64,000 nt of DNA from Prauserella alba. Its GTDB lineage: Bacteria > Actinomycetota > Actinomycetes > Mycobacteriales > Pseudonocardiaceae. Under the pieces are notes generated by a model that saw only the letters and a program-made list of their open reading frames with translations, made no database searches and was not told the origin of the DNA. The position numbers and the translations under genes were made by a program. Shown here one piece after another: positions 4,626-24,009 of this stretch. The DNA lies in contig NZ_JAMTCH010000004.1 in NCBI RefSeq assembly GCF_024171735.1, positions 558,001-622,000 on the forward strand, read 5' to 3'. The stretch's first letter is position 1. Each line of letters begins with the position of its first letter.

Positions 4626-4676
4626 CCCCCAGGGGCACCTTGGTGGCGTTGAACGCCACCAAGGTGCCCCTGGGGG
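4626..4676. repeat. dispersed intergenic palindrome, copy 1 (perfect)
   Basis: The arms are 25 bp and perfectly complementary (4626-4650 and 4652-4676) around one central base. The arm begins CCCCCAGGGGCACCTTGGTG. It is followed by tttt on the plus strand. It sits in the convergent gap between kgd and the protease gene. Related copies lie at 11766, 14020-14140 and 23959, all also between convergent genes. A two-sided terminator is the simplest reading; a REP-like mobile repeat is the alternative. Confidence 0.85.
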
Positions 4677-4732
4677 TTTTCACCTGATCACCCGGCCGGG
4701 GGTTGCACCGGGTGAGGTGTGTCAGGCCGGTC

Positions 4733-6292
4733 TCACAGGGTGAGGGTCCAGCTGTTGAGCGTGCCGGTGTCCCACGAGTAGGCATCGGTCACCTTCAACG
4801 TCCACTCGCCGTTCGGCTCGGAGACACCCGACAGGTCGACCGTGTAGGTCTCGTTGACGTTGTCGCGGGAGTCGTACCCGGACGTCTTCAGGTTGTAGTC
4901 CGAACCGTCCGGGGCGACCAGGTCGAGCGCGATGTCGCCGCGGTAGGAGTGGGTGATGTCGACGTCGACCGTGGCATCGGCCGAGGCTGCCTCACAGCCG
5001 GAGATTGTGACCGTGCTGGTCATCGAACCTGCGTCCGGGATGGCGGTCGTGTCGTTGTTCGTGACGGCCTCACAGTCGCCAGGCTCGGGGTCCGGCTCGT
5101 CCGGCGGCGTCGACCCGTCGGTGACCACGTTCAGGAGCACGTTCGGCGAGTCGGTGCCCGGGTTGGACACGACGCCCTCGGAACCGCCTGCGACCAGCGC
5201 GTCACCGACCTGCTGCGGCGTGGCGCCCTGGTTGGCGGACAGGTACACCGCGGCCGCACCCACGACGTGCGGGGTGGCCATCGACGTGCCGGAGATCGTG
5301 TTCTCGGACGTGTCGCTGTCGATCCATGCGGACGTGATGTCGCTGCCCGGAGCGAAGATGTCCACGCAGGAGCCGATGTTCGAGAAGCTCGACCGGGCGT
5401 CGGTGTCGGTCGTGGAACCGACCGTGATGCCCTCCGGAGTGCGGGCCGGCGACGTGTTGCACGCGTCGGCGCCGTAGTCGTTGCCCGCGGCCAGACCGTA
5501 GGTCACGCCGGAGGCGATGGAGTTCTGCACGGCCTCGTCGATCGCGGTCGAGGCGCCGCCACCGAGGCTCATGTTGGCGACCGACGGGCCGGAGGCGTTC
5601 TCGGTGACCCAGTCGATACCGGCGATGACGCCCGCGTTGGTGCCGCTGCCCTGACAGTTGAGCACCCGGACGCCGACGAGGTCCACGTTCTTGGCAACGC
5701 CGTAGTCGGAACCACCAACGGTGCCGGCGACGTGCGTGCCGTGGCCGTTGCAGTCCGTGGCGTCGTTGTCGCCGTCGACGGTGTCGGTGCCGTGCGTGGC
5801 CCGGCCGCCGAAGTCCTCGTGCGAGGTCAGGATGCCGGTGTCGATGATGTAGGCCGTGACACCGTCGCCGTCGTTCGGCGACGAGTAGTTGTCGTCGAGC
5901 GGCAGGTCCGGCTGGTCGATGCGGTCCAGCCCCCACGACGGCGGGTTCGCCTGGTCCGCGGCGGTGTGCATGGTCTGCACCTGCTCGACGTAGTCGACGG
6001 CCGGGTTTGCCGCGATGCGCTTGGCCAGCGCCTCGGACATCTCGGCCGAGTAGCCGTTCAGTGCGCTGGAGAACCTGTGCTCGACCTTGCCGCCCAGGTC
6101 GGCGGCCGTGGTCTGCACACCGTCCTTCAGCTTGACGATGTAGTTGCCGGCGACCGCGGTGTCCGCGTTGGCACCGATGATGGCGCCTTCCTGCGGTACG
6201 GCGCCTGCGGTGCCTGCCATGCCCAGCACGAGGGCCGCGGCGGCTGTGCCCACCCCGACGGCCGTGCCGACCTTTCGCTTATCGGTACGCAC
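4733..6292 (-). CDS. secreted subtilisin-like (S8) serine protease with C-terminal P-domain
   Basis: 519 residues. A Sec-type signal peptide (residues 1-31, ending AGTAGA) is followed by an I9-type propeptide (about 48-108, NYIVKLKDG...YVEQVQTM). The S8 catalytic domain has Asp151 (AYIIDTG), His184 (NGHGTHVAGT), oxyanion Asn271 (AAGND) and Ser337 (GTSMATPH). A Pro/Glu/Asp linker near 395-405 leads to a proprotein-convertase P-domain (about 415-519, SYRGDIALDLVAPDG to NSWTLTL). This is the aqualysin/proteinase K-like layout of secreted actinobacterial proteases that mature by propeptide removal. The GTG start at 6292 has GGAAGGG just upstream. It is transcribed alone, convergent with kgd. Likely role: extracellular protein degradation. 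Confidence 0.93.
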   Translation of the reverse strand: MRTDKRKVGTAVGVGTAAAALVLGMAGTAGAVPQEGAIIGANADTAVAGNYIVKLKDGVQTTAADLGGKVEHRFSSALNGYSAEMSEALAKRIAANPAVDYVEQVQTMHTAADQANPPSWGLDRIDQPDLPLDDNYSSPNDGDGVTAYIIDTGILTSHEDFGGRATHGTDTVDGDNDATDCNGHGTHVAGTVGGSDYGVAKNVDLVGVRVLNCQGSGTNAGVIAGIDWVTENASGPSVANMSLGGGASTAIDEAVQNSIASGVTYGLAAGNDYGADACNTSPARTPEGITVGSTTDTDARSSFSNIGSCVDIFAPGSDITSAWIDSDTSENTISGTSMATPHVVGAAAVYLSANQGATPQQVGDALVAGGSEGVVSNPGTDSPNVLLNVVTDGSTPPDEPDPEPGDCEAVTNNDTTAIPDAGSMTSTVTISGCEAASADATVDVDITHSYRGDIALDLVAPDGSDYNLKTSGYDSRDNVNETYTVDLSGVSEPNGEWTLKVTDAYSWDTGTLNSWTLTL

Positions 6293-6384
6293 GCTTTTCC
6301 CTTCCGTTCGAGCTTTGTCCGGAATGCGCCGAACAGTAAGCGAGAACGCGGCGAGATCACATCAAGGAGAATTTTTCCAAAATT

Positions 6385-6422
6385 GCGACGAAAGTAGTGT
6401 TCCTACTCTGTTCGTCGCAATC
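6385..6422 (-). terminator. hairpin between proX and the protease gene
   Basis: A 10-bp perfect outer stem (6385-6394 / 6413-6422) continues into a 5-bp inner stem (6395-6399 / 6405-6409) with a 5-base loop and a 3-base bulge. Read on the minus strand it is followed by attttgg and aaaaattc. It lies about 160 bases after the proX stop and about 95 bases before the protease start. A terminator of the osmoprotectant operon is most likely; a leader structure of the protease mRNA is possible. Confidence 0.5.
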
Positions 6423-6583
6423 ACGACGGCGTAATGGTCCACACCGGCAGGGAAAATGCGTTCAAACCGTGACCGGCAGGTGCAATTCGCGTTGCACCGC
6501 CGCGGCAAGACCCATCGTTCAGCCCCCAACGAAGGTCTGCTACCAAGGTAGCGCTCCGGCCCCCGCGTGCGGCGGGGACGAAA

Positions 6584-7504
6584 TCAGCGACCCCCGGCCT
6601 GCGCCAGGAACTCGTCGGCGATGTCGGCCGGATTGCGTTTCCGCTCCGAGAACTCGACGTTCAAATCGGTCAGCTTCTCGGTCGTGAGGGCTGCGGACAC
6701 CCGGTCGAGCGCCGCGCGTTCCCGTGCCGACAGCGCCCCTTCGGCAGCGAGCGGAACGATGTTCTGCGCGGGGAACATGTCGCGATCGTCGTCCAACGGG
6801 ACGAACCCGTTGCTGTACACGGACGCCGAGGTGCTGAACATGTTCGCCACCTGCACCTCGCCCGACCGCAACGCCTCCACCGTCACCGGTCCACCCGTGT
6901 CCGTCGTGCGGATCTCCTTGAACTCGCAGCCGTACAGCTCACGGATCTCCGCACGCCAACGTTCGCCCCACTGGCCCGGACCGCCGAAGACGAGCCGGTC
7001 GCAACGCGGAGCGAGGTCCGAGATCGTGCGCACACCCTGTGCGGCCAGATCACCCCGCACGACGAGCATGTCGGTGTTCTCCGCCGGGGACTGGTCCAGC
7101 ACCTCGAGGCCCTCCGGCAGCGCACCGGGCAGTTCCCGGTAGACCTCGGCCGAGGTCGTCGCCGAGGTGTCCTGGTCGAAGTGCCGCAGCAGGTTGCCGC
7201 TGTAGTCGGGCGCCAGCGTCAGCGACCGATCCCGCAATGCCTGGACCAGCACCTCACGACCACCGACCGGCGGCCGCACCGTGACGTCGTCCGCGCCCGC
7301 GCCACGCAACGCACCGGCGTAGATCTCCGCGAGCAGCAGACTCTCCCCGACATCGGAGGCGCCGATGACGATGCGCCCGTCGTCGCCTCCCTCGGCGCCT
7401 CCGCGCAACGGGTTGCCGCACGCGGCCGCCAGCGCCAGTACCGCGCACAACGAGACGATGTGTCGCCATCGGCGGCTGACCCCGTGGCTCGGCGTCGCGG
7501 TCAT
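6584..7504 (-). CDS. proX: osmoprotectant ABC transporter substrate-binding lipoprotein
   Basis: 306 residues. An N-terminal lipoprotein signal ends at Cys29 (LAAAC), after which the mature protein would be lipid-anchored outside the membrane. The body matches the glycine betaine/choline/proline binding-protein family of the OpuBC/ProX/OsmF type (GASDVGESLLLAEIYAGAL near the start, then APDYSGNLL, DLAPRCDRLVFGGP and MFSTSASVYSNGFVPLDDD). It captures the osmolyte and delivers it to the two permeases encoded upstream. Its ATG overlaps the preceding permease stop by four bases (ATGA), so it is the last gene of the operon. The exact ligand is not readable from the sequence. Confidence 0.88.
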   Translation of the reverse strand: MTATPSHGVSRRWRHIVSLCAVLALAAACGNPLRGGAEGGDDGRIVIGASDVGESLLLAEIYAGALRGAGADDVTVRPPVGGREVLVQALRDRSLTLAPDYSGNLLRHFDQDTSATTSAEVYRELPGALPEGLEVLDQSPAENTDMLVVRGDLAAQGVRTISDLAPRCDRLVFGGPGQWGERWRAEIRELYGCEFKEIRTTDTGGPVTVEALRSGEVQVANMFSTSASVYSNGFVPLDDDRDMFPAQNIVPLAAEGALSARERAALDRVSAALTTEKLTDLNVEFSERKRNPADIADEFLAQAGGR

Positions 7505-8187
7505 GCGGCCCCCTTCGACGTCGCGAGTTCGGCCAAGCGCACGCCGCGCGGCACCACGGTCCGCTGCAGCCCCGCCAACAGCAGGTCCAGCACCACGGCC
7601 AGTGCCGCTGTGAACAGCGCCCCGGCCACGACCTCGGCATAGTCGAGGATGGCCAGTCCGTCCATGAGGTAGCGGCCGAGTCCGCCGAGCCCGACGTATG
7701 CCGCGACCGCGGCGGTCGCCACGAGCTGCAGCACCGCGTTGCGCACGCCGCCGAGCACCATGGGCAGGGCGATGGGCACCTCGACCTGCCACAGCCGTTG
7801 CATCCCGCGCATGCCGACCCCGCTCGCCGCATCGACGACGTGCGGATCGACCGCCTGCACGCCCGCGTACGTGCCCGCCATGATGGGTGGCACGGCCAGC
7901 ACCACCAGGCCGACGACCGCCGCGGGTGTGCTTTCTGCCAGCAACAGGAAGAACAGCGTGACCACGCCGAGCGTCGGCAACGCGCGCACGATGTTGCCCG
8001 CGCCGACCAGCAGCACCGCACCCTTGCCCGTGTGCCCCACCAGCAATCCGACGGGTACGGCGATGACGAGGGCGATGGCCAGTGCCAGGGCGACGTAGCC
8101 CACGTGTTCGAGCACGCGGGCCGGCACTCCCCCGGGGCCGCTCCAGTTCGCCGGGTCGCCCAACCACGCGAGAGTCTCGGCGATCAT
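7501..8187 (-). CDS. proZ: osmoprotectant ABC transporter permease
   Basis: 228 residues, a binding-protein-dependent permease of the OpuBB/ProW class with about six hydrophobic segments. The EAA-loop region is recognisable (DAASGVGMRGMQRLWQVEVPIALP). With its partner permease it forms the membrane channel of the uptake system. The ATG at 8187 overlaps the stop of the upstream permease gene by four bases, and its own stop overlaps proX. The tight coupling implies translation of the whole operon from one message. Naming it proZ versus proW is arbitrary. Confidence 0.87.
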   Translation of the reverse strand: MIAETLAWLGDPANWSGPGGVPARVLEHVGYVALALAIALVIAVPVGLLVGHTGKGAVLLVGAGNIVRALPTLGVVTLFFLLLAESTPAAVVGLVVLAVPPIMAGTYAGVQAVDPHVVDAASGVGMRGMQRLWQVEVPIALPMVLGGVRNAVLQLVATAAVAAYVGLGGLGRYLMDGLAILDYAEVVAGALFTAALAVVLDLLLAGLQRTVVPRGVRLAELATSKGAA

Positions 8188-8882
8188 GCGGCCTCCCCCG
8201 CTGCGACGGGCCGGTTCGGTGACGCCGGCCGCTGCCACGGCGTGAGCACGCGGCGCAGCAACACCAGGAGGAGATCCACCACGAGTGCGAGCAGGAGGGT
8301 CAGTACCACTCCGACGACGATGGGTGCGTAGTACTCGCGTTGGAAGCCGTCGGTGAACAGCCTGCCGAGGCCGCCGACCCCGATCAGCGCGCCGACGCTG
8401 ACCAGACTGATGTTGCTCACCGCCGCGACCCTGACGCCCGCGGCGAGTACCGGCACGGCGAGTGGGAGTTCGACGCCGAAGAACCGGCGTGCCGGCCGGT
8501 ATCCCATGGCCGTGGCGGACGCCGTCACGGCCTGCGGCACGGCGTCGAGAGCGTCGAGCATCGGGCGAACCAGCAGTGCGGCCGTGTACAGGGACAGCGC
8601 GATGACGACGTTGACACTGTCGAGGATCGTCGTGCCGATGACGCCGGGAATGACGACGAACAACGCCAGCGACGGGATCGTGTAGACGAGGTTCGCCGCG
8701 ACGGCGAGCGTTCCTCGAACCGGAGGCCACGTGCGCCCCAGCCACCCCGCGCCGACCGCCAGTACGACACCGAGCAGGATCGGGAGCAGAGCCAGGTAGC
8801 AGTGCTCGGCCAGCGCCGCCCACAACTGGGCACGGGTGTTCGCGCTGCCGAGGTAGGTGGCGAGCTCGTCGGTGATACTCAC
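8184..8882 (-). CDS. proW: osmoprotectant ABC transporter permease
   Basis: 232 residues with hydrophobic segments throughout. The EAA-like loop is ATAMGYRPARRFFGVELPLAVP, and it has the GVGGLGRLFTDGF stretch common to this permease class. It is the second half of the transmembrane pathway with the following gene. The GTG start at 8882 lies 7 bases after the ATPase gene stop, and the stop overlaps the next gene (ATGA). Some related systems use a single permease; two separate ones are typical of the mycobacterial ProXVWZ and OpuC types. Confidence 0.87.
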   Translation of the reverse strand: MSITDELATYLGSANTRAQLWAALAEHCYLALLPILLGVVLAVGAGWLGRTWPPVRGTLAVAANLVYTIPSLALFVVIPGVIGTTILDSVNVVIALSLYTAALLVRPMLDALDAVPQAVTASATAMGYRPARRFFGVELPLAVPVLAAGVRVAAVSNISLVSVGALIGVGGLGRLFTDGFQREYYAPIVVGVVLTLLLALVVDLLLVLLRRVLTPWQRPASPNRPVAAGEAA

Positions 8883-8889
8883 GTCGCGG

Positions 8890-10056
8890 TCACGCTCTCG
8901 GGGTTCGGCTTGTCGCGGTGGGGTTCGCGGTTCGGCTTGTCGCGGTCGTGTTGGCGGTGCCGCTCGTCGCGGTGACGCTGGCAGGGTGCCGCTCGATCAC
9001 GTCGAGCACGTGGCGCGCGGTGACGACCCCGACGGTGGCGCCGTCGTCGTCCACCACGACGCCGAGGCTCGCGGGTGAGGACAACGCGGCGTCGAGCGCG
9101 CCGCGCAGGGACGTGCCCCGCCGGTACAGCGAACCGCCGGCCACGAGGTCGACCTCGGCCAGTCGGCCGTCCACTGTGGAACCGGGCGCGAGCCAACCGC
9201 GTGGTCTGCGCTCGGCGTCTATCGCCAGCCGCCATTCGTCGGAATCTTCGGGCACGGAACCGATCGCCGCGGTGGCGACGTCGTCGACCTCCAGATCACC
9301 CGCCGACAGGAACGACAGCCCCCGGTAGCCGCGATCCTTGCCGACGAACTCCGCGACGAAGTCGTCGACGGGATGGCGCAGTACGTCGGCGGGTGTGCCG
9401 TACTGCGCCAACCGGCCGCCCACGCGGAGAACGGCGACCCGGTCGCCGAGCCGGACCGCCTCGTCGATGTCGTGCGTGACGAACACGATCGTTTTGCCGA
9501 GCCGTCGTTGCAGGTCGAGCAGTTCGTCCTGCAACCCTTCCCGCACGACCGGGTCCACGGCCGAGAACGGTTCGTCCATGAGCAGCACCGGTGGATCCGC
9601 GGCGAGTGCACGTGCGACCCCAACCCGCTGTTGCTGGCCCCCGGAGAGTTGGGCCGGATACCGCGAACCCAGCTCGGCGGGCAGGCCGACCGTGTCGAGC
9701 AGCTCACCGGCCCGGCGTCGAGCCGACCGCCGGCTCCACCCGGACAGCATCGGCACGGTCGCGATGTTGCCCAACACTGTCCGATGTGGAAACAGACCCG
9801 CGTGCTGGATGACGTAGCCGATTCCCCGTCGCAGCTCGGCCGGATCGGCGTCGCGCACGTTACGCCCGTCCAGCAGTACTTCCCCGCCGGTGGGCTCCAC
9901 CATGCGGTTCACCATGCGCAGCGACGTCGTCTTGCCGCATCCGGAGGGACCGACGAACACGGTCATGCTGCCGTCCGGCACGGTCAGCGACAGCTCGTCC
10001 ACCGCGAGGGCCCCGTCCTCGTAACGCTTGGTGACGCCGCGGAACTCGATCGTCAT
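8890..10056 (-). CDS. proV: osmoprotectant ABC transporter ATPase with C-terminal CBS domain
   Basis: 388 residues. The ATPase domain has Walker A GPSGCGKT (36-43), signature LSGGQQQ (137-143) and Walker B LLMDEP (158-163). A region after about residue 240 carries one recognisable CBS-like repeat (about 310-375, SLGVVVDDDGATVGVVTARHVLDVI), as in OpuA/ProV proteins where CBS domains sense ionic strength. The last 27 residues are three 9-residue repeats (TATSGTANT, TATSRTANP, TATSRTPRA), which look like a recent tandem expansion. The ATG at 10056 follows AGGAGAC on the minus strand. First gene of the four-gene operon. The upstream region holds a C-run array and an inverted repeat. Confidence 0.92.
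   Translation of the reverse strand: MTIEFRGVTKRYEDGALAVDELSLTVPDGSMTVFVGPSGCGKTTSLRMVNRMVEPTGGEVLLDGRNVRDADPAELRRGIGYVIQHAGLFPHRTVLGNIATVPMLSGWSRRSARRRAGELLDTVGLPAELGSRYPAQLSGGQQQRVGVARALAADPPVLLMDEPFSAVDPVVREGLQDELLDLQRRLGKTIVFVTHDIDEAVRLGDRVAVLRVGGRLAQYGTPADVLRHPVDDFVAEFVGKDRGYRGLSFLSAGDLEVDDVATAAIGSVPEDSDEWRLAIDAERRPRGWLAPGSTVDGRLAEVDLVAGGSLYRRGTSLRGALDAALSSPASLGVVVDDDGATVGVVTARHVLDVIERHPASVTATSGTANTTATSRTANPTATSRTPRA
8893..8973 (-). repeat. 27-bp tandem repeat at the 3' end of proV, three copies
   Basis: Three in-frame 27-bp units encode the C-terminal TATSGTANT / TATSRTANP / TATSRTPRA of ProV. The two distal units are nearly identical in DNA. Only 7 bases separate the proV stop from the next gene, so the repeat runs up to the gene end. 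Confidence 0.75.
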
Positions 10057-10105
10057 GGTCGTCTCCTGCTTCCTCGGCACTCGGACACTGTGCACCAGAC
10101 CTTCG

Positions 10106-10177: not shown

Positions 10178-10194
10178 TGAGGTCGCTGCCCCGC

Positions 10195-10228
10195 ACCTGT
10201 CACGCGGCCTGTGACCCGCGTGACAGGT
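10195..10228. promoter_or_regulatory. 13-bp perfect inverted repeat in the proV / bpsA-like divergent region
   Basis: The arms (10195-10207 and 10216-10228, acctgtcacgcgg and its complement) flank an 8-base spacer. The element lies 139 bases upstream of proV and 94 bases upstream of the divergent gene. This is typical of a dimeric repressor site; no regulator gene adjoins it. It could also form a hairpin in RNA. Confidence 0.45.
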
Positions 10229-10321
10229 CCGCCCGACGGTAACCGAGACGGCCGACAGAACCGCACCTTCGGAGTCGGCCGGGCGTCCGCGCCGCTGCTC
10301 AGGGCATCTAGGGTAGGCGCC

Positions 10322-11749
10322 ATGAATTCGGTGCGTCAGGTGTTCGGCGTGGACGCGAAGTCGCTGCGGCATGCCATCGCGTTGCTGACCGAGCGCAGCT
10401 GGCTGTTCGACGACCTCGTGCGCGAACTGGCCGCTCCCCGGCGCACGGTCGAGGAACTGCTGCAGGCCCTTGGCGACGACCTCGAACGGGACGGCGACCG
10501 CCTACGCCTGCGTCCCGACGTCGTCGACGCCCACCGGCAGCAAGCCGGCAGTCCGCACACCACGGACGGCCTCGAGGCGGAAGTCGCACGCCACATCGCG
10601 CACGTGCCGCCGCCGCTTCCCGCGCTCGACCACGTGCAGGCGACCGCCGACACCGTGGTGCGCCGCGCGCGCTGGCTCGACGAGCACTACGACCTGCGCA
10701 GCACCCGGCTGACGTTTCTCGGCGACCACGACCTGACCTCACTGGCGGTGCGTGCGCTGCGTCCCGAGGCCGAGCTGACGGTCATCGACGTCGACGACCG
10801 CATCCTCGACTACGTCGACCGGCAGAGCTCCCGGACGATCCGCACCGTCCACGCCGATCTGCGGTTCGGCCTCCCGCTGTCGGTGATGGGCAAGGCCGAC
10901 ATCGTGTTCAGCGACCCGCCGTACACCCCGGAGGGCATGGGGCTGTTCGCCACCAGGGGGCTCGAATGCCTCGCCGACCCGCCCGCGGGGCGCCTGGTGC
11001 TCGCCTACGGCTACAGCCCCCGGCATCCCGCACTCGGCCACCGCACCCAGCGCGCACTCGTCGGCCTGGGCCTTGCGTTCGAATCGATCGTGCCCGGGTT
11101 CCACCGATACAGCGGTGCGCAGGCGATCGGCAGCGCGGCCGACCTGTACGTCTGCCAGCCCACGACGAAGGCACGCAAGGGTGGCAGGAAGAGCAGCAAG
11201 CAGACCATCTACACGCGCGGGGCACAGTCACTCGAAGCAGGAGAGACCACGGACGAGCTGTTGACGGCGCTGCGGACCATCGCGGGCCAGAACGGACTCG
11301 ACGTCGAGGAACGCGGCGCCGACTGGACGAAGCCGGTCACGACGAAGCCCGGCACGGCCGTGGCCGTGGACCTCGGGGCCGACCCGGGGCCGTGGCTGCT
11401 GCGCACCCTGCTGGCCGTGAACGCCGATCGCGTGGCGGTGTTGCTGCCGAACTCACATCCGGACCTCGTCGACGCGGCGTCGCAGCGCGGGCTGACCGAA
11501 CTGATCGGCCCGAAGTACCGGCTCCGGCTGCTGCGCAGCACTCCGGACAACACGCACGCGGTCGTCGTCGCCGAACCGCCCGCCAGCGCCACCGGTCACA
11601 CCGACGCGGCGGCCCGCGCCCTGCTCACGCGGGCGCACGGCCGACTGGGCAACATCTGGCCCGACGCCCCCGAGGACGTCTCCGACGACCGGCTCATCGA
11701 CCTGCCGCGTCACCGCGTGGCCGAGGTCCGCACCGAGCTGGGCGACTGA
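10322..11749 (+). CDS. BpsA-like N4-bis(aminopropyl)spermidine synthase family protein (PF01861/DUF43)
   Basis: 475 residues. The N-terminal winged-helix-like region (about 1-70) and the methyltransferase-like core match the family that transfers aminopropyl groups from decarboxylated SAM to make branched polyamines. Key motifs are GDHDLTS (134-140, GDDD-like) and DPPYTPEGMG (198-207). The family name comes from a thermophilic archaeal/bacterial enzyme; the substrate in this organism is not known. A Lys-rich stretch (KARKGGRKSSKQ) leads into an extra C-terminal part of about 170 residues. ATG at 10322 is preceded by TAGGGT (10309-10314) with 7 bases between, the pattern of a leaderless transcript. 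ATG 10313 would add three residues. Confidence 0.75.
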   Translation: MNSVRQVFGVDAKSLRHAIALLTERSWLFDDLVRELAAPRRTVEELLQALGDDLERDGDRLRLRPDVVDAHRQQAGSPHTTDGLEAEVARHIAHVPPPLPALDHVQATADTVVRRARWLDEHYDLRSTRLTFLGDHDLTSLAVRALRPEAELTVIDVDDRILDYVDRQSSRTIRTVHADLRFGLPLSVMGKADIVFSDPPYTPEGMGLFATRGLECLADPPAGRLVLAYGYSPRHPALGHRTQRALVGLGLAFESIVPGFHRYSGAQAIGSAADLYVCQPTTKARKGGRKSSKQTIYTRGAQSLEAGETTDELLTALRTIAGQNGLDVEERGADWTKPVTTKPGTAVAVDLGADPGPWLLRTLLAVNADRVAVLLPNSHPDLVDAASQRGLTELIGPKYRLRLLRSTPDNTHAVVVAEPPASATGHTDAAARALLTRAHGRLGNIWPDAPEDVSDDRLIDLPRHRVAEVRTELGD

Positions 11750-11765
11750 CCCTGCCTACGAGAAG

Positions 11766-11816
11766 CCCCCAGGGGCACTTTGGTTGCATCGAGTGCAACC
11801 AAAGTGCCCCTGGGGG
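11766..11816. repeat. dispersed intergenic palindrome, copy 2
   Basis: Perfect 23-bp arms (11766-11788 and 11794-11816) flank a 5-base loop. The outer part is the same as copy 1 (CCCCCAGGGGCAC); the inner part differs in both arms together (tttggttgca instead of cttggtggcg), so pairing is preserved. It lies 16 bases after the BpsA-like stop and 27 bases before the malic-enzyme stop on the other strand. Confidence 0.85.
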
Positions 11817-11843
11817 CAGTTGGTAGCTGTCGGCGATCCGCCG

Positions 11844-13010
11844 TCAGCCGACGACGCCGTCGGCTTCCGCGGCCTTCGCGACCGCGGTCGCCACCTCCTC
11901 GGCGACCCTCGGATCGAGCGGGCTCGGCACGATGCGGTCGGCCGCGAGTTCGTCGGCCGCCACGGACACGATCGCCTCAGCCGCCGCGAGCTTCATGTTC
12001 TCCGTGATCGCCCGAGCACCGGCATCGAGCGCACCGCGGAACACCCCGGGGAACGCCAGCACGTTGTTGATCTGGTTCGGGAAGTCGCTGCGGCCGGTGG
12101 CCACCACTGACGCGTACTTCGCCGCGACGTCCGGGTGAACCTCGGGGTCCGGGTTGGACAGTGCGAACACGATCGGTTCGGGCGCCATCGTCGCGAGGAG
12201 GTTCTCGTCGATCGTCGCGCTCGACAGGCCGATGAACACGTCCGCGCCGGCCATCGCCTCGTCGATGCCGCCGCGCAGGCCCGCCTTGTTGGTCGTTTCG
12301 GCCAGCTCGGTCTTGATCGCGTTGAGGTTGTCCCGGCCCGTGTGGATGATCCCCCGCGAGTCGAGGACCGTGACGTCACCGACACCCGCGGCCTGCAGGA
12401 TCTTCGCGCACGCCACGCCCGCGGCGCCCGCGCCGGAGATCACGACCCGCTGGTCGGCGATGTCACGACCGGCCACCAGGTTCGCGCCCCGCAGCGCCGC
12501 TAGCACGACGATGGCCGTGCCGTGTTGGTCGTCGTGCATGACCGGGCAGTCCAACGCGTCCTTGAGCTTGTCCTCGAGCTCGAAGCACCGGGGCGCCGAC
12601 ACGTCCTCCAGGTTCACCGCGCCGAACGACGGACGCAGCCGCACCAGCGTTTCGACGATCTCGTCGACGTCGCTGGTGTCGAGCACGAGCGGAATCGAGT
12701 CCAACCCGGCGAACGTCTTGAACAGGACCGACTTACCTTCCATGACCGGCAGCGAAGCGCTCGCGCCGATGTCACCGAGCCCGAGTACCGCCGTGCCGTC
12801 GCTGACCACTGCCACCAACCGGTCCGCCCACGTGTAGCGCTTCGCGAGCTCCGGCTGGTCCTCGATGGCGCGGCTGACCTTCGCCACCCCGGGGGTGTAG
12901 GCGATGGACAGGTCGCGCGCCTGCGTGATGGGTCGGGTGGCCGACACGGAGAGCTTGCCGCCCTCGTGTCCGCCGAAGATGTCGTCGTCACTCACCTGAG
13001 CTTGGGACAC
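11844..13010 (-). CDS. NAD(P)-dependent malic enzyme
   Basis: 388 residues from the preferred GTG at 13010, which has GGAG about eight bases upstream; an in-frame start near 13100 would add 30 residues unlike the family. It decarboxylates malate to pyruvate with reduction of NAD(P). Seen: the N-terminal malic domain (SIAYTPGVAKV with the catalytic Tyr, SDGTAVLGLGDIG, ALDCPVMHDDQHGTAIV with metal-binding Asp residues) and a Rossmann NAD-binding domain (ISGAGAAGVACA). This is the short prokaryotic form without a phosphotransacetylase extension. Single gene, convergent with the BpsA-like gene and divergent from rmlC. Cofactor preference is not readable with confidence. Confidence 0.93.
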   Translation of the reverse strand: MSQAQVSDDDIFGGHEGGKLSVSATRPITQARDLSIAYTPGVAKVSRAIEDQPELAKRYTWADRLVAVVSDGTAVLGLGDIGASASLPVMEGKSVLFKTFAGLDSIPLVLDTSDVDEIVETLVRLRPSFGAVNLEDVSAPRCFELEDKLKDALDCPVMHDDQHGTAIVVLAALRGANLVAGRDIADQRVVISGAGAAGVACAKILQAAGVGDVTVLDSRGIIHTGRDNLNAIKTELAETTNKAGLRGGIDEAMAGADVFIGLSSATIDENLLATMAPEPIVFALSNPDPEVHPDVAAKYASVVATGRSDFPNQINNVLAFPGVFRGALDAGARAITENMKLAAAEAIVSVAADELAADRIVPSPLDPRVAEEVATAVAKAAEADGVVG

Positions 13011-13399
13011 GTCTATCTCCAGGGCTGAAAAGGAAAACTGCCAGCGGGCACTCCGCTGGCTCGTGGGCTCCTCGGTCCCGGCGACTCGGCGCGGTAGCAC
13101 CGTCTGCCGGCAAGGTGTCCGTCATAAGGCCCTTGGTTCAGGCGTAGCCGCGGACGCGGCGGTCCGTCCAGTGTGACATCTCCACGCGCTGTCAGCCGTG
13201 CCAGTGCGGCCCGGATCACAGAACCACCCCCGTTTCCGCAGGTCACGCCGCCGCTAGCAAGACGGACGTCCGACTTGGGTGGATCTTGCCACTCCCATCA
13301 TCGCCCAGCCGGAGGCGCTGCGCGTGACCGCCTAGGGCCCACCCGTCACCCTCCGCCGCCCAGCCGGAGGCGCTTCGCGCCGCTGCATAGGATTTCAGC
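13011..13399. other. intergenic region between malic enzyme and rmlC-like gene
   Basis: 389 bases between divergent genes, holding both promoters. On the rmlC side TAGGAT (13388-13393) sits 6 bases before the ATG. The right half contains a 23-bp direct repeat described separately. No credible coding frame or RNA gene was seen. Confidence 0.6.
13302..13379 (+). repeat. 23-bp direct repeat, related to a copy near tmk
   Basis: Units 13302-13324 and 13357-13379 match at 22 of 23 positions and share gcccagccggaggcgct. The second unit continues into an 18-base string (13366-13383, ggaggcgcttcgcgccgc) that recurs inverted at 48041-48058. The core ggcgc-ttc-gcgcc is itself a small hairpin. Short dispersed intergenic element of unknown role. 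Confidence 0.6.
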
Positions 13400-14011
13400 A
13401 TGGAAGCCCGCACGCTGGCCGTCCCGCACGCCGTGGAGTTCACCCCGCCCGTCTTCGGTGACCAGCGCGGTCTGTTCACCGCCCCGTTCCAGGAGCCGGC
13501 CTTCCTCGATACGGTCGGGCATCCGCTGACCGTGGCGCAGACCAACCACAGCGTGTCCCGCCGCGGCACGATCCGCGGCATCCACTTCGCCGACGTGCCA
13601 CCGGGGCAGGGCAAGTACGTCTACTGCCCGAATGGCTCCCTGCTGGACATCGTCGTCGACCTGCGCACCGGCTCTCCCACGTTCGGCACGTGGGACATGG
13701 TGACACTCGACAGCCGGACCTTCCGCGGCGTGTACATCGCGGAGGGACTGGGGCACGGTTTCATCGCCCTCGAGGACGACACGGTCATGACGTACCTGTG
13801 CTCGACGTCGTACAACCCGCCGGCCGAACACGGCATCGACCCCCTCGATCCGGACCTCGGCCTGCCGTGGCCCGGCGACGTCGAGTACGTCCTCTCCGAC
13901 AAGGACCGCGCCGCCCCGTCGCTCACCGAGGCCCGCGACTCCGGCCTGCTACCCCGCTACGAGGACTGCCTCGCCCGTTACGCAGAGCTACGCGCGAACG
14001 CACCCGCCTGA
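13400..14011 (+). CDS. rmlC: RmlC-like dTDP-sugar epimerase
   Basis: 203 residues of the dTDP-4-dehydrorhamnose 3,5-epimerase cupin family. Motifs: FGDQRGLFTAPF (substrate region), RRGTIRGIHFADVP with the catalytic His, GQGKYVYCPNGSLLDIVVDLR, and GLGHGFIALEDDTVMTYL. It would epimerise C3 and/or C5 of a dTDP-4-keto-6-deoxyhexose. No rmlA/B/D genes are nearby, so a role in a different deoxysugar cannot be excluded. The start fits a leaderless message (TAGGAT, 6 bases, ATG). Convergent with the cholesterol oxidase, with palindrome relics in the gap. Confidence 0.82.
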   Translation: MEARTLAVPHAVEFTPPVFGDQRGLFTAPFQEPAFLDTVGHPLTVAQTNHSVSRRGTIRGIHFADVPPGQGKYVYCPNGSLLDIVVDLRTGSPTFGTWDMVTLDSRTFRGVYIAEGLGHGFIALEDDTVMTYLCSTSYNPPAEHGIDPLDPDLGLPWPGDVEYVLSDKDRAAPSLTEARDSGLLPRYEDCLARYAELRANAPA

Positions 14012-14019
14012 GGTCCGGC

Positions 14020-14140
14020 GTTGCCCTCAAGGACACCTTGGGGGCAACGGACACAGTCATGCGCCGGCGGGCCTGATGCGGCGCTGGGCTTGATCAAGGG
14101 AAGATTCGGTGCGTTCAACGCCACCATGGTGCCCTTGGGA
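14020..14140. repeat. dispersed intergenic palindrome, copy 3 (degenerate, split)
   Basis: Two pieces. 14020-14032 pairs with 14036-14048 (13 bp, one mismatch; gttgccctcaagg / ccttgggggcaac). About 45 bases on, 14093-14140 keeps the right half of the family element (cgttcaacgccaccatggtg, then cccttggg) with a decayed left arm. The region lies between the convergent rmlC-like and cholesterol oxidase genes. It looks like a decayed copy of the 4626 element next to a shorter hairpin. Confidence 0.6.
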
Positions 14141-14155
14141 GCGAGACCCCGATGG

Positions 14156-15832
<1,677 letters not shown>

Positions 15833-16439: not shown

Positions 16440-16476
16440 CCAACCGGTGGGCATGGTGCCGGGATACGGTGCCCTC

Positions 16477-17614: not shown

Positions 17615-17652
17615 CCGGCTCGTGCGCCACGCCCGGCGACCCCTGGAGCAGC

Positions 17653-19414: not shown

Positions 19415-19567
19415 CTGGTCGCAGCCGGTGAACAGCAACCAGCTGATCACCTCCGGCAAACCCCGGTTGCCGCTCATCGACGCTGAGGCTCCACTCGCCG
19501 CAAAGTTCGATCGACGGGCGGCGTTGCTGAGAGGTAAAGCCGCAGGTCAGATCGGCGTTTTGCTGCC

Positions 19568-19581
19568 GTGACCTGACTCAC
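19568..19581. promoter_or_regulatory. CRP-like site GTGA-N6-TCAC upstream of whiB1
   Basis: The sequence reads cGTGAcctgacTCACc, a perfect inverted GTGA/TCAC pair with 6-base spacing, centred 127 bases before the whiB1 ATG. It matches the general CRP/FNR-family half-sites. From recollection, whiB1 of M. tuberculosis is controlled by the cAMP receptor protein through such sites. Function here is inferred. Confidence 0.55.
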
Positions 19582-19701
19582 CGATCCGCCGAAAACACTT
19601 GTCGAAGCCCGGGACTCGTGAAAGCATTCACAAGCACCCCGAAAACGACCGCCAAGACGACGTTGGCGCGGCACCCCCGCGTCTTGAGAAGGAGCTCAAG
19701 A

Positions 19702-19956
19702 ATGGACTGGCGCAACCGCGCGGCCTGCCGAGACGAGGACCCGGAACTCTTCTTCCCCGTGGGAACGAGTGGCCCCGCCCTCTCGCAGGTAGCTGCCGCG
19801 AAGGCAGTATGCCACCGCTGCACCGTCGCTTCCGACTGCCTCGCCTGGGCCCTGGCCAGCGGCCAGGACGCCGGCGTGTGGGGCGGCATGGACGAGGACG
19901 AGCGTCGTGCGCTCAAGCGTCGCCGCGCACAGGTCGGTCAGCACAGCAACGCCTGA
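19702..19956 (+). CDS. whiB1: WhiB-family [4Fe-4S] transcription factor WhiB1
   Basis: 84 residues, the length of mycobacterial WhiB1 and very similar to it in my recollection (MDWRNRAACRDEDPELFFPV; GVWGGMDEDERRALKRR). The four cluster-ligand cysteines are C9, C37, C40 and C46. The GVWGG turn is at 58-62, followed by the basic C-terminal DNA-binding tail. WhiB1 is a nitric-oxide-sensitive regulator that binds region 4 of the principal sigma factor. The Shine-Dalgarno is gaaggag (19687-19693). Downstream and convergent lies pdtaS, as in M. tuberculosis. A CRP-like site sits upstream. Confidence 0.96.
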   Translation: MDWRNRAACRDEDPELFFPVGTSGPALSQVAAAKAVCHRCTVASDCLAWALASGQDAGVWGGMDEDERRALKRRRAQVGQHSNA

Positions 19957-20035
19957 GCAGACCGCCGCAGGTAATACGACCTGCCTTTTGCCCGGATTGA
20001 CGTAAATACTTTTTACTGGGGCCGAGGCAAAAGGT

Positions 20036-20073
20036 TTGAGGGCCGGCATCCCTATTCGGGTGCCGGCCCTCAA
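20036..20073. terminator. hairpin between convergent whiB1 and pdtaS
   Basis: A 13-bp perfect stem (20036-20048 / 20061-20073), with a further ccc/ggg inside the loop, starts 80 bases after whiB1. The right arm runs directly into the 18-bp tandem repeat at 20069. Probably a two-way terminator; no long T tract on either side. Confidence 0.6.
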
Positions 20074-20104
20074 GCGTGTCCGGGGCCTCAAGCGTGTCCG
20101 GGGC
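20069..20104 (+). repeat. 18-bp perfect tandem duplication
   Basis: Units 20069-20086 and 20087-20104 are identical (ctcaagcgtgtccggggc). The duplication overlaps the right arm of the preceding hairpin, so it probably arose by slippage at that structure. Confidence 0.8.
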
Positions 20105-20107
20105 AGC

Positions 20108-20125
20108 GTGCGAATGCATTCGCAC
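20108..20125. promoter_or_regulatory. 18-bp perfect palindrome GTGCGAATGCATTCGCAC
   Basis: A perfect palindrome without spacer in the whiB1-pdtaS convergent gap, followed to about 20245 by a stretch of imperfect ttccgggagcgg-like repeats. The position, downstream of both genes, argues against a promoter operator. It could be a protein-binding site for chromosome organisation, or a structural repeat. Confidence 0.5.
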
Positions 20126-20245
20126 AGCCGGGGTTACCGCGAATGTTCGCTGTCTCGGAGAAACGGGACTCCGCGTGCACGGGTTTTCCGGGAGCGGGGT
20201 TTCGGGAAGCGCCGTTTCCGCGAGCGGAGTGTTCCGGAATCCGAT

Positions 20246-21730
20246 TCAGCCGCGACGATTGAGCGGCACCCGGAGGTTCGCCTCGGTGCCGCCGTGACTG
20301 CCGCCGCGCAGCGACAGCGACCCGCGCAACTCGGATTCGGCCAGTGTCCGGGCGATCTGCAAACCGAGCCCGTCGGCGCGTTCCAACGAGAACCCTGAAG
20401 GCAGGCCGCGTCCGTCGTCGCGGATGACGATGTCGAGCCGGCCGGCCGACCGGTCGACCGCGATCTCCACCTCGCCGGCTTGTCCCGGTTCGAACGCGTG
20501 CTCCACCGCGTTCTGGACCAACTCGGCGACCACCATCACCAACGGCGTGGCGATGTCGGCCGCGACGATGCCGAACGAACCGCTGCGCGACAGCTTCACG
20601 TGTGCTTCGGCGGTGGCGACCTCGCCGACCATCGGCAGCACGTTGTCGAACAGCTTGTCCAGGTCGACCTTCTCGTCCACCGACATCGACAGCGCTTCGT
20701 GGACCATGGCGATCGACGACACGCGGCGCACCGACTCGGTCAGGGCCTCCCGCGCCTCGCCGCTGGGCGTCCGGCGTGACTGCAACCGCAACAGGGCGGC
20801 AACAGTTTGGAGGTTGTTCTTCACGCGGTGGTGAATCTCGCGGATCGTCGCGTCCTTCGACATCAGCGCCCGGTCACGGCGTTTGACCTCGGTGACGTCG
20901 CGGGCGAGCACCAGCGCGCCCGCGGGTCTGCCCGCCGGGCGCAGCGGCAGCGCACGGAACAACGCGACGGCACCCCGCCGCGACTCCGCCTCCGCGCGGG
21001 TGCTCGGTTTGCCCGCCACGGCGTCGAGGATGCGATGCGAGATCTCCGTCGCGTCGAACGGATCACGGATCAACGACCGCGTCAGCGGCGCCAGCCGCGC
21101 GCCGATCAGATCCGATTCGTAACCCATGCGGTGATACGCGGACTGGCCGTTGGGGCTGGCGAACACGACCGTGCCGTGCTGGTCGACGCGGATCAGCCCG
21201 TCGCCGACCCGCGGGCTCGTGTGCACGTCGGTACCGCCGTCCGGGCTGGGATACGTACCGTCGGCGAGCATCTGGCACAAGTCGGCCGCGCTGCCCAGAT
21301 AGGCGATCTCGAGTGGACTCGGCACCCGCGGCGACGCCAGGTTCGTGTCGCGGCTCAGCACGGCGACCGCCCGGTCCCCGAACCGCACCGGGATCGCCTC
21401 TCTGCGCATCGGCAGGTCGTTGTACCAGTGCGGCTCCTCTTCGCGGCACAACCGCAGTTCCCGTGCGGCACGCGACAGCTGCGGGTGTTCCTCCGCCGTG
21501 AACCGCGTGCCCACGACGTCCTCGACGTGCGCCGTCGGGCCCGTCGTCGGCCGCACCTGCGCGACGCACACGAAGTCACCGTCACTGCCGGCGACGGGAA
21601 CCCACATGAGGAAGTCCGCGAACGACAGGTCCGCGAGCAGCTGCCATTCGGCAACCACGAGTTGCAGATGGTCGACCGCCTCGCCCGGCAGGCCGGTGTT
21701 GTCGGCGAGCAGTTCCGCAAGTGTGGACAT
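20246..21730 (-). CDS. pdtaS: two-component sensor histidine kinase PdtaS
   Basis: 494 residues, with GAF-like (about 1-150) and PAS-like (about 170-285) sensor domains. A HisKA_2-type phosphoacceptor helix follows (IREIHHRVKNNLQTVAALL, His at about 300) and then an HATPase domain (ELVQNAVEHAF N-box near 404, DDGRGLP, DGLGLQIARTL). This is the layout of the soluble PdtaS/Rv3220c kinase, which pairs with the ANTAR-domain regulator PdtaR to control translation or antitermination. The response regulator gene is not in the window. ATG start. Its place next to whiB1 is conserved with M. tuberculosis. Confidence 0.93.
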   Translation of the reverse strand: MSTLAELLADNTGLPGEAVDHLQLVVAEWQLLADLSFADFLMWVPVAGSDGDFVCVAQVRPTTGPTAHVEDVVGTRFTAEEHPQLSRAARELRLCREEEPHWYNDLPMRREAIPVRFGDRAVAVLSRDTNLASPRVPSPLEIAYLGSAADLCQMLADGTYPSPDGGTDVHTSPRVGDGLIRVDQHGTVVFASPNGQSAYHRMGYESDLIGARLAPLTRSLIRDPFDATEISHRILDAVAGKPSTRAEAESRRGAVALFRALPLRPAGRPAGALVLARDVTEVKRRDRALMSKDATIREIHHRVKNNLQTVAALLRLQSRRTPSGEAREALTESVRRVSSIAMVHEALSMSVDEKVDLDKLFDNVLPMVGEVATAEAHVKLSRSGSFGIVAADIATPLVMVVAELVQNAVEHAFEPGQAGEVEIAVDRSAGRLDIVIRDDGRGLPSGFSLERADGLGLQIARTLAESELRGSLSLRGGSHGGTEANLRVPLNRRG

Positions 21731-21934
21731 CGATTATCGACCACCGCACATCGTCACGATTCGTACGCGGACCGGTCGTGATCCGCTCTGCAATACTCCC
21801 ACCCGCCTCGTCCGAGTCCCACCACCAGCAGCAGGCGTCACAACCGGTGGCGGCTCCGGGAGCTCCCCGCCCAGCCGAAGAGAGCGGGGAACGCACATGC
21901 CACACTGGGGCCAGCAAGTCATGGAGGAATGAAC

Positions 21935-22009
21935 ATGTCGAAGCGTGCACGTAAGCGCCGCGATCGCAAGAAGAACAAAGCGAATCACGGCAAGAAGCCC
22001 AACACCTGA
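21935..22009 (+). CDS. ribosomal protein bL37 (24 residues)
   Basis: A very short gene encoding MSKRARKRRDRKKNKANHGK followed by KPNT. It is basic throughout and closely resembles the actinobacterial 50S protein bL37 known from mycobacterial ribosome structures (…RDRK.SKANHGKRPN). A good Shine-Dalgarno (ggagg, 21923-21927) lies 7 bases before the ATG, and a strong terminator begins 32 bases after the stop. It would be missed by usual length cut-offs. The identity rests on remembered family sequence, but the match is distinctive. Confidence 0.88.
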   Translation: MSKRARKRRDRKKNKANHGKKPNT

Positions 22010-22041
22010 TCCGCCGCCCCGAGCGGCCGTCAGAAACGGCG

Positions 22042-22079
22042 AAGACCCCGGCGACTTCTGCGGAAGTCGCCGGGGTCTT
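22042..22079. terminator. hairpin terminator between bL37 and rshA
   Basis: A perfect 16-bp stem (22042-22057 / 22064-22079) with a 6-base loop, in the convergent gap between the bL37 gene and rshA. Flanking t/a bases on both strands suit termination in both directions. Confidence 0.8.
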
Positions 22080-22144
22080 GCTCTGTCACGGATGTCGTTG
22101 TGGAGTGCCGTGCCGCGGTGACAGGACGTCCGACGCGGCTGCGG

Positions 22145-22495
22145 TCAGGTGCCGTCGGAGCCTTCGCGGACCTGCTCGATCGTCAGCTCGGTCTCGCTGA
22201 AGCGCACGCCACCGCGTTCCTCGACGGTCCTGCGGATCGACGCCCGCAGCCGCTCCTTGAGGTCCACCGGCGCCTGATCTCCGCCGCACTTACGGTGCAG
22301 CAGCTGTTTGATCTGGTCGTCGATGCCGTACTCCTCGAGGCACGGCGGGCAGTCCTCGATGTGCTTGCGCAGCTGCGCGTCGCGGTCGGCGCTGCACTCA
22401 CGGTCGAGCAGCAGATAGATCTCCGCGAGCGCCTCGTCGCAACACACGTCACGGTCCTGCTCGGGCTTGTGGTCCGGCTGTTCCAGCGTGCTCAT
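22145..22495 (-). CDS. rshA: redox-sensing anti-sigma factor RshA/RsrA
   Basis: 116 residues of the zinc-binding anti-sigma (ZAS) family. The motif HIEDCPPC gives His45, Cys49 and Cys52 as zinc ligands, with further cysteines at 18, 19, 34 and 70. In this family disulfide formation under thiol stress expels zinc and frees the sigma factor. The ATG overlaps the sigH stop by four bases (ATGA), so the pair is translationally coupled. This matches the mycothiol-system RsrA/RshA of Streptomyces and Mycobacterium. Confidence 0.94.
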
Positions 22496-23361
22496 CGGCC
22501 AGCCACCTCCGGGGTCGCGTTCGCGGGCCGGATGAAACCACGGTCGGTGGCGACGTCGGCGAGCATGTTCCGCAGCTGGCTGCGCCCACGGTGCAACCGC
22601 GACATCACGGTGCCGATCGGCGTGTCCATGATCTCGGCGATCTCCTTGTACGCGAAGCCCTCGACGTCGGCCAGGTACACGGCCAGCCGGAACTCCTCGG
22701 GCAGCTGCTGCAGCGCCGCCTTCACGTCCGTGTCGGGCAGCTTGTCCATGGCCTCGACCTCGGCCGACCGCAGCCCGGTGGAGGTGTGGCTCTCCGCCTG
22801 GGCGATCTGCCAGTCGGTGATCTCCTCGGTCGGCTGCTGCAGCGGCTGCCGCTGACGTTTGCGGTAGCCGTTGATGAACGTGTTGGTCAGGATGCGGTAC
22901 ATCCAGGCCTTCAGGTTCGTGCCCTTCTTGAACGAAGAGAACGCCGAGTACGCCTTGAGGTAGGCCTCCTGGACGAGGTCCTCGGCGTCGGCGGGGTTGC
23001 GGGTCATGCGCAGCGCAGCCGAGTACAACTGGTCGATGAGCGGCATCGCGTCCCGCTCGAACCGCGCGATGCGGTCCTGCTCGCCCTCGGGGCTCTCGGC
23101 CTCCGCGGTGCGGTCGGGGGCGTCGGACGGTGTCGCAGTCTCGGCGCTCGGTCGCTCGGCTGTTTCAGCGGTTGCGGGCTCGGCAGAGTTCTGCGTGCTC
23201 GGCAAACCGTTCCCTTCCAGATCGGTGGCCGGGTCAGCGATGATCTCGGCGCTCGTGCTGTGCCTCTCGCGCCGGCTTCGGTTACCCGCCACCGACGGCA
23301 CATATGTCTCGACCGAGGATACGCCCCTGGCGCTCTCGGGTCTGGTCAGAATCGTCGGCAC
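22492..23361 (-). CDS. sigH: ECF sigma factor SigH/SigR, long isoform
   Basis: 289 residues from GTG 23361. The core is unmistakable SigR/SigH: region 2 ([51 protein letters not shown]) and region 4 ([35 protein letters not shown]-like). It directs the disulfide-stress regulon. The long isoform adds about 95 low-complexity Ala/Glu/Ser/Thr residues before region 2. A short isoform could start at TTG 23205, which has GGAAGGGA five bases upstream. The long start lies about 10 bases after an exact SigR-type promoter, so the induced message is nearly leaderless. The arrangement parallels Streptomyces, where a longer unstable sigma form comes from the autoregulated promoter. Coupled to rshA. Confidence 0.93.
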
Positions 23362-23370
23362 ACCCCCTGC

Positions 23371-23396
23371 AACGACGACCCTCGATCGGGTATTCC
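23371..23396 (-). promoter_or_regulatory. SigR/SigH-type promoter GGAAT-N18-GTT of sigH
   Basis: On the minus strand the -35 GGAAT (plus 23392-23396) and -10 GTT (plus 23371-23373) are separated by exactly 18 bases, the consensus of SigR/SigH promoters. It lies directly upstream of the sigH long start, implying positive autoregulation. The expected transcript start (about 7 bases after GTT) leaves a leader of only about 3 bases. Confidence 0.85.
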
Positions 23397-23440
23397 CACC
23401 CCCGGCGGCGGCATTTCACGAGTCGCCTAGCCTGCACGTC

Positions 23441-23917
23441 ATGGCGGGTAAGGGGACACCGGCGACGGCACTGTTGGCCAAGCGCGGCGTCGAGCACACA
23501 CTCCACACCTACGAGCACGACCCGCGTCACGAGTCGTACGGACTGGAGGCCGCCGAAGCGCTGGGAGTCGCACCGGAGCGGGTACTGAAGACGCTCGTCG
23601 CGACCGTCGACGGCGTGTCGACCGTCGGGGTCTTGCCGGTCACGGGGCAACTCGATCTCAAGGCGCTCGCCGCAGCCGCGGGTGGCAAGAAGGCGAGGAT
23701 GGCCGACCCGGCCGCGGCGCAGCGGGCGACGGGTTACGTCGTCGGCGGGATCTCACCGCTCGGCCACCGTTCGCGCCTGCCGCTCGTCGTCGACGCCTCG
23801 GCCGAGACATTCGCCACGGTGCTGATCTCGGGTGGCCGGCGGGGCCTGGAGATCGAACTCGCCCCGGCCGACCTCATCACGCTGACAGCAGCCACCGTGT
23901 CAGCTATCACAGCCTGA
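23441..23917 (+). CDS. ybaK: YbaK/EbsC-type Cys-tRNA(Pro) deacylase
   Basis: 158 residues of the YbaK/prolyl-tRNA-associated editing domain family. Motifs: GTPATALLAKRGVEHTLHTY, YGLEAAEALGVAPERVLKTL with the conserved Lys, GKKARMADPAAAQRATGYVV, and GISPLGHRSRLP. It hydrolyses Cys mischarged on tRNA(Pro). ATG 23441 follows TAGCCT (23428-23433) by seven bases, so the transcript is probably leaderless. Divergent from sigH; convergent with the hydrolase gene across a palindromic repeat. Confidence 0.9.
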   Translation: MAGKGTPATALLAKRGVEHTLHTYEHDPRHESYGLEAAEALGVAPERVLKTLVATVDGVSTVGVLPVTGQLDLKALAAAAGGKKARMADPAAAQRATGYVVGGISPLGHRSRLPLVVDASAETFATVLISGGRRGLEIELAPADLITLTAATVSAITA

Positions 23918-23958
23918 CTCACCCGAACGGGCGATCTCCGACCGGAGTGTCGATACCT

Positions 23959-24009
23959 CCCCCAAGGGCACCTTGGTGGCACTCAACGCAACCAGGGTGC
24001 CCTTGGGGG
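23959..24009. repeat. dispersed intergenic palindrome, copy 4
   Basis: 19-bp arms (23959-23977 and 23991-24009) with one mismatch and a 13-base centre. The arm reads CCCCCAAGGGCACCTTGGT. It is followed at 24010 by a short partial third piece (cactcaacgcgagtaag), as if two copies had recombined. It lies between the convergent ybaK and hydrolase genes. Confidence 0.8.

Follow-up and report, generated by a model that had tools for sequence, protein, structure and literature searches.

The window analysed here comprises 64,000 nucleotides of DNA from the soil actinobacterium Prauserella alba with a G+C content of 70% (positions 558001-622000 of contig C2) and belongs to a genome, G000, of 5.6 Mb on 11 contigs. 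It contains four copies of a long palindromic element, three of them compact and one decayed and split, and our gene calls place each copy between two convergent genes; in both respects the preliminary description of the window, made from the letters alone, was borne out. Type A copy 1 (53 bp, 4625..4677; like all features below without strand assignment) lies between a 2-oxoglutarate dehydrogenase gene (695-4501, plus strand) and a subtilase gene (4733-6292, minus strand). Type A copy 2 (53 bp, 11765..11817) is found between a gene at 10211-11749 (+) and a malic enzyme gene at 11844-13010 (-). The decayed, split long copy (120 bp, 14023..14142) is situated between genes at 13400-14011 (+) and 14156-15775 (-). 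Type A copy 4 (53 bp, imperfect, 23958..24010) has a YbaK-like gene (23441-23917, +) on its left and an alpha/beta hydrolase gene (24043-24657, -) on its right. Genes were called by our own scripts. The first gene caller missed the YbaK-like gene and thereby misfiled the copy at 23959; a second caller was used for the final placement counts, while the first underlies the orientations of other hairpins, the type counts on C2, the junction comparison and the tract and substitution tests.

The inverted repeat at 4626-4676 has perfect arms of 25 bp and that at 11765-11817 arms of 24 bp, whereas the arms at 23959-24009 are imperfect. All three compact copies are predicted to fold very stably (-58 to -42 kcal/mol), with z-scores of -10.2, -10.4 and -8.2 (-6.4 on the minus strand). 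In the decayed copy both arms are present around an unrelated centre and the left arm forms a fold of its own; its folding is unremarkable (z -1.7). Copy 4 is directly followed by an 11-bp palindrome, GCACTCAACGC (24009..24019, read directly from the sequence), identical to the palindrome at the centre of the element, which accounts for the partial third piece that had been described there. A half-copy relic proposed near 37017 (37018-37040) has five mismatches to the 23-base arm compared with six in the best reversed-sequence control and is thus at about chance level. An Rfam search of the window matched no family.

The four copies belong to a large family. A one-arm pattern of 20 bases gave 122 forward and 124 reverse matches with up to three mismatches in the whole genome, while the reversed control gave only 5 and 6, and the chromosome carries roughly a hundred copies of the hairpin. 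Individual copies were read throughout C2 (1.46 Mb), in 190 kb of C3 and at 13 places on C1, and 48 type A copies were collected in G000. Type A is a near-perfect palindrome about one centre base, built from two inverted palindromes termed P2 (CCCCAAGG-TGC-CCTTGGGG) around an 11-bp palindrome, P1 (GCRYTSARYGC). Its flanks show a weak mirrored preference resembling the edge of another P1, and copy 4 of the window has a P1 directly behind it. Long forms carry the same arms with other centres: in type B the arms extend into CTTCCCCTCGCG...CGCGAGGGGAAG around a variable centre, and type C, found in several species, has a different centre. The type C centre (GCCACGCGCCAGCGTGCCCTTGAGGGGCGGTGG... and variants) recurs, for example at C2:740729-740914, at L108:8500-8606 and in orthologues in G005 and G002, and may be an element in its own right.

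On C2 we counted 22 type A, 11 long and 8 single-arm copies. Thus, as in REPINs, which are inverted doublets of repetitive extragenic palindromic (REP) sequences, doublets prevail over single arms (33 versus 8, with up to two mismatches), and one of the eight single arms is part of a more diverged long copy. Some single arms are now long hairpins around P2 (e.g. C2:1335748), and single arms look like remnants. Clusters of at least three arms, partly in direct repeat, occur at L101:4727-4962 and L145:2953-3063, as if P1 and P2 were units able to chain. These numbers also bear on another idea, in which a signal for DNA uptake or protein binding occurs in inverted pairs and thereby forms terminators, as the accessible text of PMC2267715 mentions for other bacteria. 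The rarity of single arms speaks against this origin, and the genic 17-mer matches on C2 all carry three mismatches, as in the reversed control; the idea was already disfavoured and we give it almost no credence.

Related hairpin families with lineage-specific arms are scattered patchily through the Pseudonocardiaceae, the bacterial family to which the genus belongs. Among 249 genomes of this family, all seven of the genus were positive for the one-arm pattern at two mismatches (11-117 matches per strand). Outside the genus, the pattern was frequent in few genomes (G088 and G109, with lower numbers in G026, G054, G046, G034 and G155), and genus g15 comprised two genomes with 76/75 and 95/107 matches and two with 0/0. 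A symmetric pattern matched 23 of 397 genomes of the order, in 8 of 85 genera, and the tabulated counts showed no match of its reversed version. At least 10 symmetric-pattern copies were present in G000, G002, G005, nine genomes of genus g16, G015, G026 and G030, and G252 (7/5) was the only matching genome from outside the family. A search of the GTDB collection, from which records very near to the genome of the window may be excluded, gave the exact symmetric element in 38 stretches, all from Prauserella aidingensis, P. salsuginis or P. isguenensis. Phages and plasmids gave no blastn match at an E value of 0.01 with the low-complexity filter on.

To describe the helix we aligned 47 distinct type A copies over 23 base pairs and compared them with 500 shuffles. 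Altogether, 95.4% of the helix cells are paired. The covariation score and the number of cells with two-sided changes (25) exceeded those of all 500 shuffles, but 35 of them reached the number of pairs with two-sided change (five). When the partners were slid by +1 the score remained similar (0.076 versus 0.081 in the true register), but just three two-sided cells were left. According to the preliminary description, base pairing rather than sequence is kept. This is only partly right. Between lineages both arms change together: in G088 and G109 the arm is mostly CCCAAGGCCACCTTTGTTGC on both strands with the same 7-base spacing (one-arm pattern), and genus g16 has, as one example, AAGGCCCCCTTCCTTGCGCTAGACGCAAGGAAGGGGGCCTT, found with the symmetric pattern, in which complementarity is partly built in. 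Within the genome, pair 15 covaries (nine two-sided changes, two copies unpaired), but the sequence itself is conserved, with 11 of 23 pairs invariant, and pairs 8 and 21 are often broken (unpaired in 11 and 17 of the 47 copies, respectively). Common descent explains most of this conservation.

Covariation of this kind might also be produced by fold-back copying, in which, through template switching, one arm serves as the template for rewriting the other; paired changes would then reflect mutation rather than selection for pairing. Single arms that have turned into long hairpins around another palindrome (C2:1335748 and, in G005, junction #1135) would fit such a process, as would the arms at #1132 of G005, which run on into flank-like sequence. 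It would not be expected to leave pairs 8 and 21 unpaired in many copies, and pairing beyond the 53 bp is shorter in 92 type A copies than in their shuffled flanks (0.26 versus 0.50 bp). We regard fold-back copying as very improbable; as it concerns upkeep only, it is compatible with a REPIN-like mobile element.

The preliminary description had restricted the element to convergent junctions, with none between tandem or divergent genes. This does not extend beyond the window: among 107 copies of the genus, where orthologous copies of different species were counted separately and are hence not independent, 50 lie in convergent, 41 in tandem and 12 in divergent gaps, and 4 were called genic. Convergent gaps are, nevertheless, enriched. 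On C2, 18 of 33 copies are convergent compared with 6.5 expected under random intergenic placement, a value reached in about 1 of 10,000 trials, whereas tandem (11 versus 17.1) and divergent gaps (4 versus 9.4) hold fewer than expected. Copies are therefore not equally common in the other kinds of gap and, as described above, some covariation is present, so that neither outcome named in advance as refuting the earlier proposal was found outright; its strict restriction is false. The remaining copies were convergent, tandem, divergent and genic in 7, 4, 1 and 1 cases on C1 (13 copies), in 4, 8, 3 and 2 cases on C3 (17 copies) and in 14, 9, 2 and 1 cases at 26 other Prauserella loci, from which 12 on two contigs already tallied were excluded. 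Contig C3 of G001 holds 11 copies (4 convergent, 5 tandem, 2 divergent) and contig C3 of G005 seven (3, 4 and 0).

Gene 3′ ends describe the placement better than convergent junctions. In tandem gaps, 38 of 41 copies are closer to the upstream stop codon, and 103 of the 107 copies are intergenic as called; the family is thus mainly extragenic and 3′-proximal, like REP sequences in the wide sense. Of the four genic calls, that at L003 is spurious (beside a run of N) and two concern one ketosynthase-like gene, counted in both G000 and G001. In a distant genus (G204), 7 of 10 places among the matches listed are convergent, two tandem as called and one has an ambiguous call. Other strong hairpins on C2 are also convergent in about half of the cases (57 of 112 intergenic ones), indicating that the bias of the family is that of hairpins at 3′ ends generally.

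This placement, together with a hairpin that is very stable on both strands (mean predicted stability of type A, -48 kcal/mol), brings up the host-selected bidirectional terminator, whose hairpin would be its function and whose sequence would have spread because it is effective, the shared sequence being a by-product. A stable hairpin at convergent 3′ ends is a feature shared with bidirectional intrinsic terminators, and termination by the hairpin would be plausible. Furthermore, in some congeners the same gap holds a hairpin with an unrelated sequence, as judged by eye from the alignments at window position 11765 (G002, G003 and G005) and at C2:1031085 (G002 and G003). The T or A content per 8 bases on the better side was 3.3 for 11 convergent copies and 2.9 for 58 other convergent hairpins (P 0.22), and 1.7 for 9 tandem copies; on these counts U/A-tracts do not appear richer at the copies than at other hairpins. 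The available text of a review (PMC12288462) describes I-shaped terminators lacking a U-tract in mycobacteria, and also cites a paper whose title states that a U-tract is required. Presence of the element showed no association with absence of another hairpin (5/17 versus 48/167 convergent gaps), and a role as substitute for other hairpins was rejected on these counts. Next to copies, separate hairpins persist across species: the element at C2:1246702 forms an indel of approximately 55 bp beside a hairpin retained in G000, G001 and G005, and separate hairpins are also retained at junctions #864, #883 and #893. Copies in divergent gaps and within genes, and the lack of any copy in sister genomes of one genus, likewise argue against host selection for termination, which we consider improbable. 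The shared bidirectional terminator of the preliminary description is hence possible as a consequence of the element and unsupported as its cause. In the window itself, a separate hairpin outside the family (4525..4561), between the 695-4501 gene and copy 1, is a candidate for an ordinary terminator.

The comparison of species, each represented by one genome, showed turnover of copies and forms. Of 312 junctions alignable in G000, G001 and G005, 23 carry a family copy in at least one species. Eleven sites with type A in G000 correspond in G001 to type A at four, a half copy at one and none at six (one of these six, #943, aligns to a truncated copy), and in G005 to type A at three, long forms at two, halves at three and none at three. 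Only one of the 11 sites, #881, has type A in all three species. C2:1005125 bears a hairpin in all seven species, in short, long or variant forms. Copies inside genes vary as well. In nuoG (NF005895), an in-frame type A copy is present in G000 and G001, a distinct version accompanied by a longer relic occurs in G002, and in G003-G006 the gene is 33 nt shorter at that place. The ketosynthase-like gene carries an in-frame type A copy in G000 and G001, a short hairpin in G002 and none in G005; among the matches listed there was no match to the gene itself in G003, G004 and G006.

Such data might also be accommodated by a classical miniature inverted-repeat transposable element (MITE). Here the long forms (types B and C, approximately 100-190 bp with long inverted ends) would be original and moved by a transposase recognizing their terminal inverted repeats, and type A would be an internal-deletion product that is now commonest. 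The long forms indeed share ends while their centres are variable or different, a single site may bear type A, long or half forms depending on the species, and the nuoG relic of G002 is longer than the type A copies of G000 and G001. However, no transposon sharing these terminal inverted repeats was present in the stretches read, target-site duplications were lacking in the sequence read, and long copies on C2 are outnumbered by type A (11 versus 22). A MITE origin appears unlikely.

With moderate confidence we favour a small non-autonomous, REPIN-like mobile hairpin that is kept where its likely terminator effect is harmless. The copy number and the excess of doublets over single arms on C2 argue for it, as do the 3′-end bias, the 7 of 10 convergent places in the distant genus, the sharing of type A by all three species at only one of 11 sites, the indel at C2:1246702, and the in-frame nuoG and ketosynthase-like copies that are missing from some congeners. 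Further support comes from the patchy occurrence within one genus, the lineage-specific arms and published parallels in placement. Movement as such is inferred from differences between species. The hairpin would spread and turn over via a trans-acting enzyme whose substrate is probably the extruded hairpin, and its RNA form would be strong enough that copies in operons or promoters are probably harmful and hence purged. Copies would then persist downstream of stop codons, chiefly in convergent gaps, and some at convergent junctions may act as extra or replacement terminators. The alternative offered in the preliminary description, a REP-like element or bacterial interspersed mosaic element (BIME) settling at harmless sites, agrees well with the dispersal, the presence and absence at orthologous sites, the in-frame copies, the inverted-doublet anatomy and the 3′-end bias.

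Several results weigh against a REPIN-like mobile element. No mobiliser was found, and none of 22 genomes had a hit above the cut-off for NF047646, a model of the REP-associated tyrosine transposases (RAYTs), and three hits were weak; among 14 control genomes one exceeded the cut-off and E. coli was among those with hits. Target-site duplications around 119 copies were all near expectation, the largest excess being 3 versus 0.6 for four bases with the boundary one base out. The convergent excess taken alone is not significant in G001 (P 0.13) or G005 (P 0.19). Among seven type A pairs shared between species, six had an orthologue more similar than the average paralogue of G000, so that shared copies were probably for the most part inherited and not newly inserted. 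Finally, clean empty sites are few, and most sites lacking the element bear further changes.

A RAYT or Y1 transposase was rejected as the common mobiliser given the result for NF047646, the occurrence of PF01797 hits in only 4 of 21 genomes and the IS605-type context of two of them. The PF01797 genes of G000 and G004 adjoin a tnpB-like gene (named by eye), as in IS605, and no hairpin element occurred within the approximately 3.3 kb read around them. The G000 gene (C1:682685-683032, L223) is thus a Y1 transposase gene of IS605 type with a relative in G004 and no association with the hairpin. In addition, within 12 bases on either side of 92 type A copies there is no conserved tetranucleotide corresponding to the GTAG/CGTC tag of REP sequences. 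The hairpin behaves in a REPIN-like manner but cannot be filed as a REPIN, because both a RAYT above the cut-off and this tag are missing.

Among the matches listed in the open-access literature we found no published description of this hairpin family, and the comparisons that follow refer to the accessible portions of the papers cited. Like REPINs, REP doublets and BIMEs (PMC3116915), the family consists mainly of short palindromes paired in inverted orientation, with singles rarer, and forms hairpins in dozens to hundreds of copies in strain-specific families. Unlike REPINs, it comes without a RAYT above the cut-off in 22 genomes, its 23-bp arms have almost no spacer and its long forms have unrelated centres. 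With GTAG/CGTC-tagged REP sequences, including rickettsial ones (PMC3733652), it shares the location mostly in convergent gaps or just behind the upstream gene of a tandem pair and some in-frame genic copies, whereas it lacks the tetranucleotide tag and has longer arms; the term actinobacteria is absent from the accessible text of that paper. The R0, R2 and other intergenic repeats of Pseudomonas fluorescens (PMC2718517) are likewise inverted repeats around a variable core with strain-specific abundance. Their Tail-repeat-Tail bias was explained as a least-worst location, and the same argument would apply to the same bias here, although the ends of R0 and R2 match insertion sequences and no such match was found for our family. 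Finally, I-shaped actinobacterial terminators (PMC12288462) resemble the family as stable hairpins close behind stop codons, apparently without a U-tract, but ordinary terminators do not form one repeated sequence family, and the hairpins described here lie in divergent gaps and genes as well.

Dissemination of REPs and REPINs is usually linked to RAYT transposases, and in the accessible text of a survey of the RAYT superfamily (PMC6006769) the sampled Actinobacteridae had subclass 1.1 genes only. REP-like sequences are already known in the phylum, with thousands in three Actinomycetota species according to the available text of a tool paper from 2025 (PMC12306157). The REPIN-like family found here in Actinobacteridae reaches approximately 80-100 matches per strand in two genomes of one genus, while two further members of that genus have none; its mobiliser could be sought by comparing gene presence. 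It is tentatively conceivable that a RAYT-independent mobile-hairpin system exists throughout this actinobacterial family. Its fixed geometry (long arms and a centre GC-N-YT-N-RA-N-GC) would be inherited, while the arm sequence would be swapped by lineage on both sides at once, either through an enzyme reading shape over sequence or through fold-back rewriting. More generally, hairpins at convergent junctions and covariation between arms can stem from mobile DNA and are alone no proof of a conserved terminator.

Three further observations were made. At L003:1498-1560 (C1 of G000, approximately position 112723) the sequence behind a type A copy continues with a run of G and ends in an N-filled gap; the assembly thus breaks beside the copy. 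A stretch of approximately 78 bp at L078:15835-15912 (C2:1015835-1015912) has many matches of 83-97% across the genus, and ARAGORN predicted no tRNA in it. In the window, another repeat of approximately 110 bp (13292-13402) precedes a dTDP-sugar isomerase gene; matches to its 18-base core are few on C2 (2 and 3 with up to two mismatches), and the repeat has matches of 78-85% elsewhere in G000, G001, G004, G005 and G006.

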